Shown here piece by piece: positions 1,696-40,595 of a stretch of 40,595 bases of DNA. The notes beneath the pieces were generated by a model. The model searched no databases, was not told the origin of the DNA, and worked only from the letters and a program-made list of their open reading frames with translations. Position 1 is the stretch's first letter; the number at the start of each line of letters is the position of its first letter. Location: the IMG/VR virus record IMGVR_UViG_3300046524_000356, positions 1 through 40,595 of that record; one strand, given 5' to 3'. The translations under genes and the position numbers were made by a program. This stretch comes from a virus.

Positions 1696-3597
1696 TTAGT
1701 TTGATTGGGTTGGGAATGGCCAAGCGCTTGCTGGCTTCAATTCGACAGTGCGGTGCTTCTTCACCTTGATGACCGGGCCGGCGTCGGCTACTGGCACTGG
1801 CTCGATGTCGACAGGTTTGGCCTTGAGCTGCAGCTTTGGCCGTGCGACTTTGGCGGCCGGTGGGGCTGCATCAGCTGACGGTGCGAGCGCAGGTTCTGCC
1901 GGCGCCTGGGCTGCCTGACGGTGATCTTGGCCAGGGTCGATGCGCTCTAGTTTTGCCATTGCATTAAGCGCGTCGACGCCGTAGCTGTCATCAGCGCGGT
2001 CAACCTCCCAGTGTTCGACGCTCAGGTGTTCGCCCATCATCAGGTCGAGCATCAGCAGTTCGATCTGCGCGAATTCTGCCTGGTCGATATAGGCGCAAAT
2101 TCCGTCATCGCTGCGGTCTTCAAACGTGTACAGGTCATCGAGAAGATCGTCAGGCAGCGGTTTTTCCCGGACAAGCAGCTTCGCCACTTCGCGGATCATT
2201 TCCAAGCTAAAGCCGGTCTGTGTCGAGCTGCGCACTTTCCGGTAAAGGGCGACGCGCTTGCTGGTGATTTCTTCTGCGCGCTCTTGTTTGCTCGCTTCGG
2301 CGGCATGCTGCGCAGCTTCCTTCGCTTTTTTCTTCGGCGACTCTTTGACCAGGTCTTTTTGCTCGCTTTGCGTGCGTGCTTCGCGCACCTCGGCCGTCTC
2401 GCACGCGCCGGCTTGTTCCAGGGCGGACTGTGCGACCGCGCGTATATACAGCGGCTGCATGATGCCCTTCTCGCTGCGAGTATAGGCAGCGACTTGCGGC
2501 AGCTGTTCGCGCTTCAGGCGGGTAGCCAAAGTGCCAGATAAGCCGGTATGCGGAGCCACGCGCTCGAACGTGTACAAAGGCGTTTCATCACATACCAGGT
2601 CACTCCCGGCACGGTAGATCTCGCTCCACGTGTTGTACGCTTCCTGGCCCTCATGTACCGGGATTTTTTGCTTCAGCGCCTCCGCGTACAGCTTGTCGTA
2701 GTGTGCGGCAGTCTTCTCCTTGAAGCATTCAGGATCGGTGCAGACGTTTGCATCCACGCCTTCAAATACTTCGGGTTGATTGCCGGCACGCTTTGGGCAT
2801 TTGTTGCAGTTGCCGGCGGTCTTGACGAGCTTTGCATCGTCCGTCATGAATATGGCTTTGCGCAGATCCAGCATGTAGTTCTGCTGCAGCCATTCCTTCG
2901 CCTTGCGGTACGACATCGGCTCATCATCCACGCGGCCGTTGGGACGCAGGATTTCGTTCAGCGCTTTCGTCTGCAGTTTGGCCAGCGGAATGCGGGCGAT
3001 CAGTAGCGCGGTCGACGCCTGCAGGTGTTCCTCGTTGTCGAGGAACAGTTCGCGCACTTCGAGATTCAAGGCGCACAGCTTCAGGCGACCGTAGACATAG
3101 CTTCGGCTCTTGTTGAGCTTGTCGACCAGCTGGTCGGCCGTGTAGCCGTGCTTCATCAACAGGCGCTCATAGCCTTCTGCCTCTTCAAGCGGATGCGGAT
3201 TGTCGCGCTGCAGGTTCTCCAGGATCTGCAGCTCAAGCGCCTCTTGATCGCTCAGGTTGCGGCAGAAGGCGGGAATAACCGACAGGCCGGCAATGATGGA
3301 GGCGCGGAAGCGACGCTCGCCGGCGACGATCTCGAACGACTGCGGCTCGTCGGCGGTAGGCTTAACTGGCCGAATCAGGATAGGCTGGGCAAGTCCTTTG
3401 GACAGGATGCTTGCCGCAAGCTCGCTCAGCTTTGCCTGGTTGAAGCGCTTACGGTTGGTGCGGGAGATACGGATGTGCACCAGGTTGTAGTTGCCGAAGC
3501 GGCTACCATCTTCAAAGACGACTTCGTCCACAACGATTCGCTTTTCGGCGGCCTCCGGGACGGTTGGAGCTGGCAAGGTGGTCAGTGCATTGGTCAT
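1696..3597 (-). CDS. ParB/RepB/Spo0J-family protein
   Basis: A 633-aa protein. The N-terminal ParB/Srx domain spans about residues 30-140 and includes the typical GERRFRA box (EIVAGERRFRASIIAG) and ENLQRDNPHPLEEAEGY. An HTH-like stretch follows (YTADQLVDKLNKSRSYVYGRL). The middle carries a four-Cys cluster (CNKC, then VCTDPEC), and the C-terminal 250 residues are Lys/Ala/Glu-rich and low in complexity. ParB proteins bind palindromic centromere sites and spread along DNA as CTPases. No ParA ATPase gene is visible, so a regulatory or DNA-packaging-linked role is equally possible. The start MTNALTTL was chosen because the longer reading frame runs back into the preceding gene. Five copies of a palindrome elsewhere in the prophage are candidate targets. 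Confidence 0.85.
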   Translation of the reverse strand: MTNALTTLPAPTVPEAAEKRIVVDEVVFEDGSRFGNYNLVHIRISRTNRKRFNQAKLSELAASILSKGLAQPILIRPVKPTADEPQSFEIVAGERRFRASIIAGLSVIPAFCRNLSDQEALELQILENLQRDNPHPLEEAEGYERLLMKHGYTADQLVDKLNKSRSYVYGRLKLCALNLEVRELFLDNEEHLQASTALLIARIPLAKLQTKALNEILRPNGRVDDEPMSYRKAKEWLQQNYMLDLRKAIFMTDDAKLVKTAGNCNKCPKRAGNQPEVFEGVDANVCTDPECFKEKTAAHYDKLYAEALKQKIPVHEGQEAYNTWSEIYRAGSDLVCDETPLYTFERVAPHTGLSGTLATRLKREQLPQVAAYTRSEKGIMQPLYIRAVAQSALEQAGACETAEVREARTQSEQKDLVKESPKKKAKEAAQHAAEASKQERAEEITSKRVALYRKVRSSTQTGFSLEMIREVAKLLVREKPLPDDLLDDLYTFEDRSDDGICAYIDQAEFAQIELLMLDLMMGEHLSVEHWEVDRADDSYGVDALNAMAKLERIDPGQDHRQAAQAPAEPALAPSADAAPPAAKVARPKLQLKAKPVDIEPVPVADAGPVIKVKKHRTVELKPASAWPFPTQSN

Positions 3598-3611
3598 GTA
3601 TGTGATTCCGT

Positions 3612-4127
3612 TCAATCGATGTCGTTCGCGGCCAGCTGCTTGTAGTCGGCAGCGGCACGGCGCGGGTGTTTGCGTGCGTAGGAGTGCAGGGCTACGCTTA
3701 GGGTTGGATTCTTGAGGGCGCTGTCGAGCGAGCCGGCAATGCGCAAGGTGCGGTGCGCGGCGGACAGGGATGCCAAATCGGGTTCGGCCGGCCGCACGGA
3801 AATGCCGCACGGCGTGTCGCCTTGCCTTGTCGCCGCCTCCTCGTACGCTTGGTAGGCCGTCTCAGCCTGGGCTGTGTACACGGTGGTATCCGCAGTGGTG
3901 CGCACCTTGACGCAGAACTCGGACAGCACATGCTGCTGGCGAGCGATGGCGAGGCGCAGATCGTCGGCGGTATCGCCTGTCATGCCGGCAAAGCCGGCTG
4001 CCGCTAGCAGTTCGACAGCGTTGCCGGCGGCGGCAGCGAGCGTCTCGAACGAGGCAGTGAGCGCTGTAGCAATATCGTGGTACGTGCCATCGGCGAGCGT
4101 CAGGCGCGGGGATTGAACGAGGATCAT
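3612..4127 (-). CDS. Hypothetical phage protein, leftward operon
   Basis: A 171-aa protein of unknown function, Ala-rich and mostly helical by composition. There is no signal peptide or membrane segment. The start codon overlaps the stop of the upstream 61-aa gene (ATGA), and 14 bp separate its stop from the ParB-like start, so it is part of the same transcript. The C-terminal end is basic (ARKHPRRAAADYKQLA). It might assist the ParB-like protein, but this rests only on neighbourhood. Confidence 0.65.
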   Translation of the reverse strand: MILVQSPRLTLADGTYHDIATALTASFETLAAAAGNAVELLAAAGFAGMTGDTADDLRLAIARQQHVLSEFCVKVRTTADTTVYTAQAETAYQAYEEAATRQGDTPCGISVRPAEPDLASLSAAHRTLRIAGSLDSALKNPTLSVALHSYARKHPRRAAADYKQLAANDID

Positions 4128-4309
4128 TTGCAGACCTCGTTGTCGTTGTGTGCAGACGTCTGCACACGCTTTACCGGCGGATTAAGGTTACGGGCTTTGA
4201 TGTAGTCGTGCCCCTTGAGTCCTGCAAACGGGTCATCGTTAATTCTGATGACCCGCACCAAGGTGCTGCGACCAGTGGCGTACTGCTGGGTGATGCAAGG
4301 TGAAATCAT
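4124..4309 (-). CDS. Small hypothetical protein, first gene of the leftward operon
   Basis: A 61-aa protein with a good ribosome site (GGAGTGGATC directly before the ATG at 4309). It is the first gene after the leftward promoter at 4342-4370. The sequence contains INDDPFAGLKGHDYIKARNL, with no family that I recognise. The 16-bp palindrome GTGCAGACGTCTGCAC lies inside it and is read as VQTSA. Its stop overlaps the start of the 171-aa gene. Confidence 0.6.
   Translation of the reverse strand: MISPCITQQYATGRSTLVRVIRINDDPFAGLKGHDYIKARNLNPPVKRVQTSAHNDNEVCK
4150..4165. repeat. 16-bp palindrome, copy 1 of 5
   Basis: A perfect GTGCAGACGTCTGCAC. The inverted symmetry extends to 20 bp (4148-4167). 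It lies within the 61-aa gene in the frame V-Q-T-S-A. Confidence 0.95.
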
Positions 4310-16685: not shown

Positions 16686-17543
16686 ATGAAATTTCCATTC
16701 CTGGCACAGCGCCTGTTCAACACGCCGCTGGCGATCACGCCTGGCAAGGCAGAGGTGATCATGGCGGCGCTGGCCGAGCGCATGGGCATCGCGCAGGTAC
16801 AGCGCGGCGTCAGCATGATGGAGAACGACGACTACGACTACAACGGGCCGGGCGACAATCCGCGCACCGGGTACGACGTCGTCGCCGGCACGGCCATCGT
16901 GCCCGTTTCCGGCACGCTGGTGCAGAAGCTCGGCACGCTGCGGCCGTACTCCGGCATGACCGGTTACGACGGCATCCGCCAGAACTTCCTGACCGCACTG
17001 GCCGACCCGAAAGTGAAAGCTATCGTGCTGGACGTGGACAGCCCAGGCGGCGAGGTGGCTGGCTGCTTCGACCTGGTCGACACGATCTACAAGGCGCGCG
17101 GCACCAAGCCGGTGCGCGCAATCCTCAATGAGGCAGCCTACAGCGCGGCCTACGCCATCGCCAGCGCGGCCGACAGAATCTATGTACCGCGCACTGGCGG
17201 TACCGGCAGCATCGGCGTCATCTGGATGCACATGGACTGGTCGAAAGCGCTGGACGCGGCCGGCTTCAAGGTCACGTTCGTGACTTACGGCGACAGCAAG
17301 GCGGACGGTCACCCGGAGATCGAACTGTCGCCAGAAGCGTATGCGCGCTTCAAGGCACAGATTGACAGCATGGGCGAACTGTTTGTCGAAACAGTGGCAC
17401 GTAACCGAAAGATCCCGGCCAAGCAGGTCCGGGCCACGCAGGCTGCAACCTACATGGGCGCAGCGGGCGTAACGCAGGGGCTTGCGGATGGCGTCATGGC
17501 GCCGGATGCGGCATTCAGGGCATTGCTCGCAGATATTAACTAA
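16686..17543 (+). CDS. S49-family head maturation protease (gpC-like)
   Basis: A 285-aa serine protease of the SppA/ClpP fold that processes the prohead. Visible are the oxyanion motif DVDSPGGEVAG at about 117, the catalytic Ser in AYSAAY at about 153, a GGTGSIGVI strand, and a Lys in YGDSKADGHPE at about 205, consistent with the Ser-Lys dyad. GGAGGA lies 6 nt before the ATG at 16686; an in-frame upstream start would overlap the portal gene. In lambda, C encodes both protease and scaffold; here the scaffold seems to be the separate next gene. Confidence 0.92.
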   Translation: MKFPFLAQRLFNTPLAITPGKAEVIMAALAERMGIAQVQRGVSMMENDDYDYNGPGDNPRTGYDVVAGTAIVPVSGTLVQKLGTLRPYSGMTGYDGIRQNFLTALADPKVKAIVLDVDSPGGEVAGCFDLVDTIYKARGTKPVRAILNEAAYSAAYAIASAADRIYVPRTGGTGSIGVIWMHMDWSKALDAAGFKVTFVTYGDSKADGHPEIELSPEAYARFKAQIDSMGELFVETVARNRKIPAKQVRATQAATYMGAAGVTQGLADGVMAPDAAFRALLADIN

Positions 17544-37888: not shown

Positions 37889-38491
37889 CTACCACGCCTT
37901 GAAGTGCATAAGAACGCCCTTCAGGGCGAGGCGTTGCTCTTGTGGCGTCAAATGGTAGAAGTCCGGGAAGTGCTCGTGCAGGGAGTGCTTGTTGGCTGTA
38001 GCAAACATTGGATCAGTTGAGCAAAACCATGCGAAATAATAACGTGCAATCGCCGGCATATCGACATCGCCGACAAGCATGGCGCAATCGTGGGCGGCGA
38101 TAAAGAGCATATACCTGTTGTCTCGTTGGCTTAGCTCGATGGTTTCGTTATAGTCTCCGGTCCCGGCAGGATGCTTGAAAAAATTCCTTGCCAGATTAAG
38201 CCTGTCCCAAATCTGCTTTTCGGTTCTGTCGGGAAATGAGTCTGCTAAGATGTCAAAGAATCGTCGCTGTCCGATTGCTTTACAGTGTTTCTCATATATT
38301 TCACGGGCTGCACAGGCGAGAGTGTGGACTGCCACGATATCGCCGCCTTCCACGTACAATCTTATCGCTGTCGCAAGCTGCCGGTGTGCTGCCTCAAGAT
38401 TGCTGATCACATATAGCTCATCTGCACGTGCAGGTGGTGCTACTTCTTCTGTCCCAGCGTCGTTCACTTTCAATTGAGCGCCTTCCATCAT
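37889..38491 (-). CDS. HEPN-like hypothetical protein in the LexA-controlled operon
   Basis: A 200-aa protein, mostly helical. Residues about 31-70 (NLEAAHRQLATAIRLYVEGG, then VAVHTLACAAREIYEKHC) are followed by LNLARNFFKHPAG, where R102-N-F-F-K-H107 fits the R-x4-6-H motif of HEPN RNases. The start (ATGATG) overlaps the stop of the SRAP gene, so the two form one transcript. It might be an RNase-type defence or stress protein. The family match is from pattern only, and a role without catalysis is equally possible. Confidence 0.6.
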   Translation of the reverse strand: MMEGAQLKVNDAGTEEVAPPARADELYVISNLEAAHRQLATAIRLYVEGGDIVAVHTLACAAREIYEKHCKAIGQRRFFDILADSFPDRTEKQIWDRLNLARNFFKHPAGTGDYNETIELSQRDNRYMLFIAAHDCAMLVGDVDMPAIARYYFAWFCSTDPMFATANKHSLHEHFPDFYHLTPQEQRLALKGVLMHFKAW

Positions 38492-39213
38492 AATTCCAGT
38501 TGTACCGGGTTCGGGTCGGATGCGTTCTCGAGCGGCAGGGCCATTTCTGGGCCGTCTGCTCCGACATTAAGTGCTCGGCTAACCTGATACCATTCAAACA
38601 ACTCCACATCGAGCATAGCCGTACGGGCGATGTGCTCAGCCTCCTCAACAGTGGTTGCCGGATCTAGCCATCTCCGCGCATCCTCAGCAGAAACTGCCAC
38701 TGGCCGACGGTCGTGTACGTCGACCATGCCACCCAGCGCATCGGCCGTCACAAGCGCAAAGCCTGCCTCTTCCGGCCGCACCTTGTATGGACCGAAATTC
38801 GCCACCGCCAACAGAAACAGTGGCTCGCGGTCCTTTCGATGGATGTGCCACGGCTGTCGAAGTTCCTTCGGACCGGTCCACTCGTACCAGCCAGCCGCGC
38901 ACACGATCCCCCGCCCACGACGCAGTAGCGGTTTCCAGTAAGGCCCCAGCAGCTTTTCTCTGCGGGCATTCGGCGTCATGCTGATTTTTCTCTTAGGGGG
39001 CACTGGGGCCTGCTCGGCGGCCCACAGCGAACGGTAGCCCCAATAGACGTCGTCCGCGACTAGTCTGCCATCTTCAAAGTGCACGACAGGCCGATAGGTG
39101 CCAGGCTTCACGTTCCATTGGCTGGACGCTTCGCTGCGATTTAATACCTCATCCACCCAGTCGAAGTTCGCTAGGAGGCGGCTAATATCGTTTTGATCGA
39201 GGCGTCCACACAT
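38488..39213 (-). CDS. yedK: SRAP/HMCES-family abasic-site protein, YedK-like
   Basis: A 241-aa protein. The start at MCGR (39213) is fixed because Cys2, freed by Met removal, is the catalytic residue. The other active-site residues fit at N82 (PNARRE), E111 (WYEW) and H167 (VHDRRPV), with spacing like E. coli YedK (75, 105, 160). The protein forms a covalent link with abasic sites in single-stranded DNA and so shields them. A perfect LexA box lies 34 bp upstream. It is the first gene of a two-gene operon with the HEPN-like gene. Confidence 0.93.
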   Translation of the reverse strand: MCGRLDQNDISRLLANFDWVDEVLNRSEASSQWNVKPGTYRPVVHFEDGRLVADDVYWGYRSLWAAEQAPVPPKRKISMTPNARREKLLGPYWKPLLRRGRGIVCAAGWYEWTGPKELRQPWHIHRKDREPLFLLAVANFGPYKVRPEEAGFALVTADALGGMVDVHDRRPVAVSAEDARRWLDPATTVEEAEHIARTAMLDVELFEWYQVSRALNVGADGPEMALPLENASDPNPVQLEL

Positions 39214-39246
39214 AAAACTATGGTACACGATTTCCCTTTTGATATA

Positions 39247-39262
39247 CTGTATGAATATACAG
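39247..39262. promoter_or_regulatory. LexA (SOS) box between divergent genes
   Basis: CTGT-ATGAATAT-ACAG matches the CTGT-N8-ACAG consensus and its flanking T/A bases fit too. It lies 33 bp upstream of the SRAP start and 22 bp upstream of the 224-aa gene, so it could control both. Both genes would be induced by DNA damage. Confidence 0.85.
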
Positions 39263-39284
39263 TAGTATTGAATGGGGTAAATGT

Positions 39285-39959
39285 ATGAAGGCGCGTGTTG
39301 TGCGGCGGCGGGATGATGGTGTGGTGTTAGCGGCGGCGGCGCCGGTGGTGGAGGGCGCATCTATCCTGGAAGTCGTGGTTGTCGAGATCACGGCGCCTGG
39401 TAGTCGGCGGCCTATCAAGGTCGCGCGCTTAATGCCGTTAGGACAGCAGCGAATCTTGGCACAATTACTGGTTCCCAAACTCGTCAAATTTTCCGGTTGG
39501 ACGATGGTTCTGAGTGGGATCGAGGAGCTGCGCGATCAACACCAACAGATGCGTGGTGTGGCGCAGACGTGGGTGTGCCAGTTGCACGTGCCGGCGAATG
39601 CTATTGGGTTCAGAATCGTCAACACAAATAAGCAGGGCGTGGTACTGCCACGTAGTTCTCTGCGGGATAGCTACAGCAGCCGGGGTAAGCTCGCTGTTGG
39701 AACCGAATTCGCAAACTCGCTGCAACGCTATGCGGCCTGTGCCGAGCTGCATGGATATCAGATCGCGACTTTCCCCTGCGCCAGGTTAGTTGACTGTTAT
39801 ATCGAATGGATGTCTGATGATCGTTTCGAGCTAGGAGGCCTCCGGGTGTGGGAGGCAAATGCCGATCACCCCCAGCGTCTAGAACGAGACGGATGGCTGT
39901 GCGAGTTCGACGTTGAGCAGCCGCAGCTCACGAAGGCGCAGTACAGACTGTTGAGGTAG
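39285..39959 (+). CDS. Hypothetical protein, LexA-controlled
   Basis: A 224-aa protein with start at ATG 39285 preceded by GGGG about 7 nt upstream. The sequence (RRPIKVARLMPLGQQRILAQ, FSGWTMVLSGIEELRDQHQQ, then CQLHVPANAIGFRIVNTNK) shows no motif that I recognise. It is divergent from the SRAP gene and shares its LexA box, so it probably belongs to the SOS response of the prophage. It may act on damaged DNA or regulate lytic genes, which is inference. Confidence 0.7.
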   Translation: MKARVVRRRDDGVVLAAAAPVVEGASILEVVVVEITAPGSRRPIKVARLMPLGQQRILAQLLVPKLVKFSGWTMVLSGIEELRDQHQQMRGVAQTWVCQLHVPANAIGFRIVNTNKQGVVLPRSSLRDSYSSRGKLAVGTEFANSLQRYAACAELHGYQIATFPCARLVDCYIEWMSDDRFELGGLRVWEANADHPQRLERDGWLCEFDVEQPQLTKAQYRLLR

Positions 39960-40087: not shown

Positions 40088-40595
40088 TCAGAAGAGTTTT
40101 TGAGTTTTTTCAAGCCCAGAATGTGCCATGAACGTTTTGAACAAGTTTGATTCACCGCTTGTGCCAGGCTTGAACTGATCAACCGTAAAGGCATCTTCTT
40201 CAATGTCAATTTTATTAAATATATCAAGGAAATCGGATTTTGAAACCACTTCGCCTTTCCAGCGCAAGCTTAGATAAGCCGGCTTAAGAAAACGCATTAG
40301 AGCCTTAAATCCGTTAGTTTTGTTTAAAATAACTCCCTTTCCGCCGGTCAACCAAGCGGTAGGCCAACGTTCAGCAACCGCACTGAAATAATTCAACAGG
40401 ATGTCGGTTATTTCTAGATCCTTCTCTTGTATGAAAAGGGTACGGAAAATCAACTTATCCGCTTTGGAATTATCTAATTTAGGTTTTCGATTTCGAATAT
40501 ACATGTCCCTATCACTGACTTTGTCGTCTGTAAGGTAACCGATTAAAGCTTCGACAAAAGTTGCTTGAGTCAACGTCTCAGTGAACTTGCCGTTG
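40088..40595 (-). CDS. DGQHR/DndB-like protein, cut by the right edge
   Basis: The last 168 residues or so of a gene that continues beyond position 40595; the reading frame is open through the window end. The visible part has KFTETLTQATFVEALIGYLT, then WPTAWLTGGKGVILNKTNGF followed by ALMRFLKPAYL. The T/K-T-N/T-G-F-x-A-L-M pattern resembles the C-terminus of DGQHR-domain proteins, a family that includes DndB of DNA phosphorothioation clusters. It is AT-rich compared with the prophage, so it may be a separate acquisition. Confidence 0.55.
   Translation of the reverse strand, partial: NGKFTETLTQATFVEALIGYLTDDKVSDRDMYIRNRKPKLDNSKADKLIFRTLFIQEKDLEITDILLNYFSAVAERWPTAWLTGGKGVILNKTNGFKALMRFLKPAYLSLRWKGEVVSKSDFLDIFNKIDIEEDAFTVDQFKPGTSGESNLFKTFMAHSGLEKTQKLF

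Follow-up and report, generated by a model that had tools for sequence, protein, structure and literature searches.

A predicted LexA-controlled prophage cassette joining an SRAP gene and a tandemly duplicated all-beta domain

Prophage setting and the divergent cassette

We analyzed the IMG/VR virus record IMGVR_UViG_3300046524_000356 over its whole length of 40,595 nucleotides (hereafter, the window). The 40.6-kb record is a prophage of the contractile-tail kind. It encodes terminase, major head, and tail-sheath proteins, and its integrase gene adjoins a tRNA-Arg gene; a right-hand attachment repeat for the tRNA-Arg end was not found within the window. A 704-aa ParB-like protein was encoded beside the integrase (1696–3810, minus strand). 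The end of the prophage, past the lysis and methylase genes, carried a cassette of three open reading frames, which lie where the first-pass annotation had placed them: a 200-aa HEPN-like protein (37889–38491, minus strand), a 241-aa SRAP protein (38488–39213, minus strand), and, divergent from the SRAP gene, a 224-aa protein (P0001; 39285–39959, plus strand). The window ends on its right side in an incomplete ORF (40088–40595) that resembled DNA phosphorothioation-associated DGQHR protein 1 with a value below the cut-off (8e-12).

Judged from its sequence, the 241-aa protein is certainly a full member of the SRAP / YedK-HMCES family. It matched PF02586 over residues 1–216 (E=3.1e-35) and the YedK structures with E~1e-33, and its residues C2, N82, E111, and H167 aligned with C2, N75, E105, and H160 of YedK, which serve abasic-site crosslinking (PMC9436759). 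The family profile and all four active-site residues are shared, and crosslinking activity of the protein is therefore likely. SRAP in a prophage is an ordinary finding; its occurrence in prophages and with umuDC, imuB, or dinB has been described (PMC3765255, PMC12926913), and the passages of these papers available to us name neither a twin-domain partner nor a shared divergent LexA box.

The gap separating the starts of the SRAP and 224-aa genes was 71 bp long and contained a putative LexA (SOS) box, TACTGTATGAATATACAGTA (39245–39264), which leaves 31 bp to the SRAP ATG on one side and 20 bp to the ATG of the 224-aa gene on the other. The first-pass annotation had called this box perfect; its CTGT-N8-ACAG half-sites are so, and 18 of the 20 bases match the E. 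coli-type consensus, which makes the whole site near-consensus. The box overlaps a weak sigma70-like promoter, TTGATA-18-TAGTAT (39239–39268, plus strand), which is a consensus match only. Shuffling of the window gave an expectation of 0.41 CTGT-N8-ACAG 16-mers per 40.6 kb, so that a chance occurrence in the 71-bp divergent gap is very unlikely (~1e-3). A second site of this kind, located among the structural genes (17379–17394), is expected by chance. Tandem CTGT-N8-ACAG boxes were found just upstream of lexA in five related host genomes, so that host LexA should recognise a box of the type seen in the cassette. A box of the same type occupied the same position in four related loci (L004, L006, L007, and L008). 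The predicted cassette box is a CTGT-N8-ACAG motif near a gene start and matches the host LexA sites, as a member of the LexA regulon would. LexA-type control of the divergent pair and a link to DNA damage, both of which had been proposed earlier, are thereby supported.

The HEPN-like gene overlaps the end of the SRAP gene: its ATG and the SRAP TGA form a 4-nt ATGA overlap, which fits the translational coupling noted before. The protein contains RNFFKH, an R-x4-H motif conforming to the Rx4-6H form with a polar residue after R; exactly this type of motif, with a polar residue following R, is described in a review of HEPN proteins (PMC3710099). RNFxKHP is retained in the closest relatives (about 47% identity), and the motif is conserved in L088 and L089; in remoter homologues it is mostly RN-x-x-KH, with R replaced in L157. 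The predicted model was all-helical (pLDDT 81), and AbiV, TT1696, 2hsb, and 1wol led the fold search, yet as weak matches (E>=0.4). No significant Pfam, NCBIfam, PHROG, or PADLOC family was found for the protein, and none of the curated HEPN profiles matched at E<=1. A weak hit to Glyco_hydro_1 below the Pfam cut-off was judged to be due to chance. Like the HEPN superfamily and AbiV, the protein is helical in its model and has the R-N-x-x-x-H motif, and HEPN structures rank first among its weak fold matches; it differs in that no Pfam HEPN model was reached, fold E-values were weak, and R was lost in the distant homologue L157. The motif and the first rank of AbiV/HEPN structures, weak E-values included, make the label "HEPN-like", already given in the first-pass annotation, a reasonable one.

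The three genes had also been regarded as a set, and this part of the earlier description did not hold. The HEPN-like gene was not found in any close relative of the cassette; two good homologues of its product were detected among 75 genus-level genomes, neither adjoining SRAP, and nowhere else was this protein found beside SRAP. Other genes occupy the slot in relatives. A 75–81-aa protein with the pattern GSLVRMxGDPDGQ...ALGEEHDWEGVRNGI.C.W and the same 4-nt overlap with the SRAP stop was encoded there in L004, L086, L230, and L234; the L004 copy (3289–3534) matched no Pfam family. In L083, a Duganella callida relative, the slot behind SRAP (2758–4168) contains a HEPN-like gene (PF05168, E=7e-4, below the cut-off) and a DUF4145 gene, unrelated in sequence to the HEPN-like gene of the window. 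The three-gene set was therefore rejected as a conserved unit, on the ground that the first-pass annotation itself had named as refuting it, namely that the trio does not occur together elsewhere: the slot behind SRAP is variable, and its HEPN-like occupant is certainly exchangeable. When the trio was sought elsewhere, what recurred was the pair of SRAP and the 224-aa-type gene.

Tandem duplication in the 224-aa protein

The 224-aa protein had no match in Pfam or NCBIfam and matched PHROG 5560 weakly, in its second half (E=0.0013). Iterated searches of the collected loci led to Pseudomonas prophage proteins of about 97 aa, encoded divergently from SRAP behind SOS boxes, and each half of the 224-aa protein aligned with this family. 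A profile built from 31 single-domain proteins only matched both halves: residues 1–102 (39285–39590, plus strand; domain E=1.9e-18) and residues 109–214 (39609–39926, plus strand; domain E=6.8e-15). Profile comparison gave probabilities of 99.7% and 99.4% for the halves against the singles and 95.5% when the halves were compared with each other. Since both halves match the single-domain profile, the 224-aa protein consists of a PHROG 5560-type all-beta SOS domain duplicated in tandem. In a second, diverged twin protein (L220), the internal repeat was visible by plain BLAST (4e-14).

The AF2 model of the 224-aa protein (pLDDT 92) consisted almost entirely of strands arranged in two repeats. 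The fold search against PDB and viral libraries returned no match at E<=1e-3, and the domain showed no conserved catalytic residues beyond R/G/Q/W positions; its function is therefore not readable from the structure.

The gene described earlier as unknown is present, but its product is not an orphan: it carries twin copies of a widespread domain of about 100 aa, apparently under SOS-box control, with relatives across genomes of the genus and the family. Pseudomonas phage members of the family matched PHROG 5560 fully (E=1.5e-43), and distant chromosomal members matched it too. That PHROG is a 90-position single domain with a function-less label, whereas the window protein has two copies, and members of the wider family extend far beyond phages. 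In named phages, tblastn searches with P0001 and P0003 gave no match. We found no description of the domain family in the open-licence literature, and the passages of PMC6511836 available to us do not mention it. The SOS domain family is new and is covered by no Pfam or NCBIfam model.

Distribution, LexA boxes, and gene neighbourhoods of the domain

The domain was carried by 35 of 75 genomes of the genus and by 86 of 394 genomes of the host family, the named genome matches being Duganella species. In an even class-level sample of 274 genomes, in which the first look scored up to 17 candidates, it occurred in at least one, the seed genome.

A strict CTGT-N8-ACAG motif within 60 bp upstream of the start was found in 81 of 117 nonredundant members, comprising 28 of 32 twins and 53 of 85 singles; for the remaining ORF starts of these loci, the corresponding count was 7 of 635. 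We also considered a SRAP-blind subset of 93 distinct genome copies, found via the domain itself and not via SRAP. The strict box lay within 60 bp upstream in 60 of these copies (compared with 1.1% of random stretches), and SRAP was located within about 1.5 kb of 35 of them (SRAP and UmuC counts are based on profiles made in the present analysis). SRAP was mostly divergent from the twins in this subset (17/28). Members without a nearby SRAP had the box in 32 of 58 cases. This retention of the box away from SRAP suggests that the domain itself is a LexA-type target and not the mere neighbour of one.

The two-gene core of SRAP and the domain recurs in Duganella-type and Pseudomonas prophages and on P. 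syringae plasmids. A divergent SRAP/twin-domain pair with a box was present in L004, L006, L007, L008, L083, and L087. The SRAP of the window is of the MCGR type, as in L004 and L083; a very different, MCVN-type SRAP is divergent from a twin in L003, L085, L086, L093–L096, L099, and L104. The same divergent order with two SRAP types indicates that the twin-domain partner was kept while SRAP was exchanged.

Some copies of the domain adjoin genes of error-prone polymerases and related proteins. The operon of L201 has the order umuD-umuC-domain-SRAP; L203 contains a umuC-domain operon; and in L218 (1027–2835) a single domain is encoded 7 bp before imuB, behind an SOS box. On the P. syringae plasmid pMG1, SRAP is divergent from a domain-S24 peptidase arrangement, a Massilia plasmid has the domain followed by DNA polymerase Y, and phage vB_PstS-pAN has a SRAP-domain arrangement. 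UmuC-like polymerases were linked with SRAP-related proteins in an independent report as well (PMC12926913). The links of the domain with PolY, UmuD, or ImuB are few, amounting to about nine loci. Most chromosomal single-domain copies adjoin unrelated genes (e.g., L112–L119), and the domain may thus act independently of SRAP and polymerases.

The copies in L112–L119 (about 1501–1866) represent one strongly conserved gene that encodes a single domain, has an SOS box of its own, and is located between GntR-type and DeoR-type regulators, as we named these from their sequences; this fixed chromosomal site is occupied in many Massilia/Duganella-type genomes. One Pseudomonas-type prophage contig (L037) contains two separate single-domain genes (677–1003 and 2709–3113), both with SOS boxes. 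A short family member was found in the filamentous Pseudomonas phage PfAC02b (L122, 2992–3195), where a hypothetical gene and the Gabija genes gajA/gajB follow downstream.

Known small proteins of the SOS response offer a comparison. The family shares with ImuB-C small size, an all-beta character, the SOS link, the company of PolY and SRAP genes, and a conserved tryptophan near the C-terminus; the AF2 model of the twin-domain protein is mainly beta, as is ImuB-C, which has no bearing on homology. ImuB-C differs in that profile-profile comparison revealed no relationship (<1% probability). P0001 was accordingly rejected as an ImuB-C protein: hhalign against 26 ImuB sequences gave a probability of 0.1–0.2%, about as low as that of the SRAP control. 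DUF6504 (PF20114), which we take to be the Pfam name of the ImuB-C domain, was absent from 60 related genomes. UmuD' and the YolD-YqjX subunits are likewise small SOS-induced proteins encoded beside Y-family polymerases, as members of the present family are predicted to be; where UmuD and the domain occur together (L201), UmuD is a separate neighbouring gene. No S24/SH3-type fold was among the PDB matches listed for the 224-aa protein, nor was one found at E<=1e-3. The twin-domain protein is most likely comparable in role to UmuD', YolD, and ImuB-C, yet belongs to an unrelated family.

Possible roles of the cassette

LexA is cleaved on DNA damage. In the lysogen, host LexA bound to the single box would silence both promoters of the cassette, and RecA-driven cleavage of LexA would open both. 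SRAP would then covalently cap abasic sites in single-stranded DNA via Cys2 and so guard these sites against both cleavage and error-prone bypass. The twin-domain protein would most likely be a small non-catalytic accessory subunit with protein- or DNA-binding beta domains, acting at damaged forks together with SRAP, Y-family polymerases, or both. The HEPN-like gene would ride the SRAP transcript as exchangeable cargo, and its product, probably a ribonuclease, would act only after damage. We give an even chance to the reading that the cassette core is such a LexA-controlled damage-tolerance module of the prophage, composed of SRAP and a twin-domain accessory protein with HEPN as exchangeable cargo.

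The very consistent SOS box of the domain, its small size, and its wide occurrence without SRAP or polymerases would also suit a regulator of the damage response, i.e., a corepressor or modulator of LexA/RecA, for which the linkage with SRAP would be co-regulation only. A protein of this kind is DdrR of Acinetobacter, a small damage-inducible corepressor encoded divergently from umuDAb (PMC7273328). We regard such a role as improbable: no DNA-binding fold was recognised in the twin-domain protein, and its close association with umuC, imuB, and SRAP in operons speaks for a role further downstream, in tolerance. Conflict between phage and host is another setting to be considered, in which SRAP would shield phage DNA against defences that generate abasic sites, HEPN would act on the host or on rival phages by killing or arrest, and the whole would be damage-triggered defence or counter-defence cargo. 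The cargo position at the prophage end, the presence of the anti-phage RNase AbiV among the closest HEPN-like fold matches (with weak E-values), the HEPN-like and DUF4145 genes behind SRAP in L083, and the generation of abasic sites by the glycosylase defence Brig1 (PMC11078745) are consistent with it. It is rather unlikely in our estimate, considering that PADLOC had no match for any of the three cassette proteins, that chromosomal single-domain copies lie away from phage genes, that HEPN is not conserved with SRAP, and that deletion of yedK left Brig1 immunity unchanged in E. coli.

An earlier proposal, made by Aravind 2013 (PMC3765255), treats prophage SRAP as a DNA-damage sensor and switch. 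Extended to SRAP and its partner as a switch for prophage induction, it agrees with the prophage location and the predicted LexA control; SRAP has since been recognised to crosslink abasic sites, however, and the same pair occurs on plasmids and in umuDC operons, where there is no lysogeny switch, so we assign this proposal a low probability. The variable slot behind SRAP and the exchangeable HEPN-like gene might even mean that the cassette is no functional unit, its genes being independently acquired cargo and the single LexA box serving SRAP alone. This, too, has a low probability, since the divergent order of SRAP and twin recurs with two SRAP types and the domain is preceded by a box even where SRAP is absent.

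The damage-tolerance module remains our preferred reading of the cassette, and a broader proposal, possible but clearly more tentative, concerns the family as a whole. The twin-domain protein may define an SOS-regulon family not recognised before, with an all-beta fold of a kind not yet seen, and may serve as the accessory subunit that joins SRAP shielding to translesion polymerases, with singles in host chromosomes and a tandem duplication in prophages. The SOS response passes for a well-catalogued system, yet a family in which about two thirds of the members examined had an upstream LexA box is covered by no Pfam or NCBIfam model, and no description of it was found. Recent predictions of SRAP-like proteins as polymerase partners raise the question of their coordination (PMC12926913). 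The recurrence of the domain beside SRAP, UmuDC, and ImuB would offer a practical way into the coordination between SRAP and error-prone polymerases, and the single chromosomal copy in non-pathogenic Duganella/Massilia strains would allow simple deletion and mutagenesis tests.
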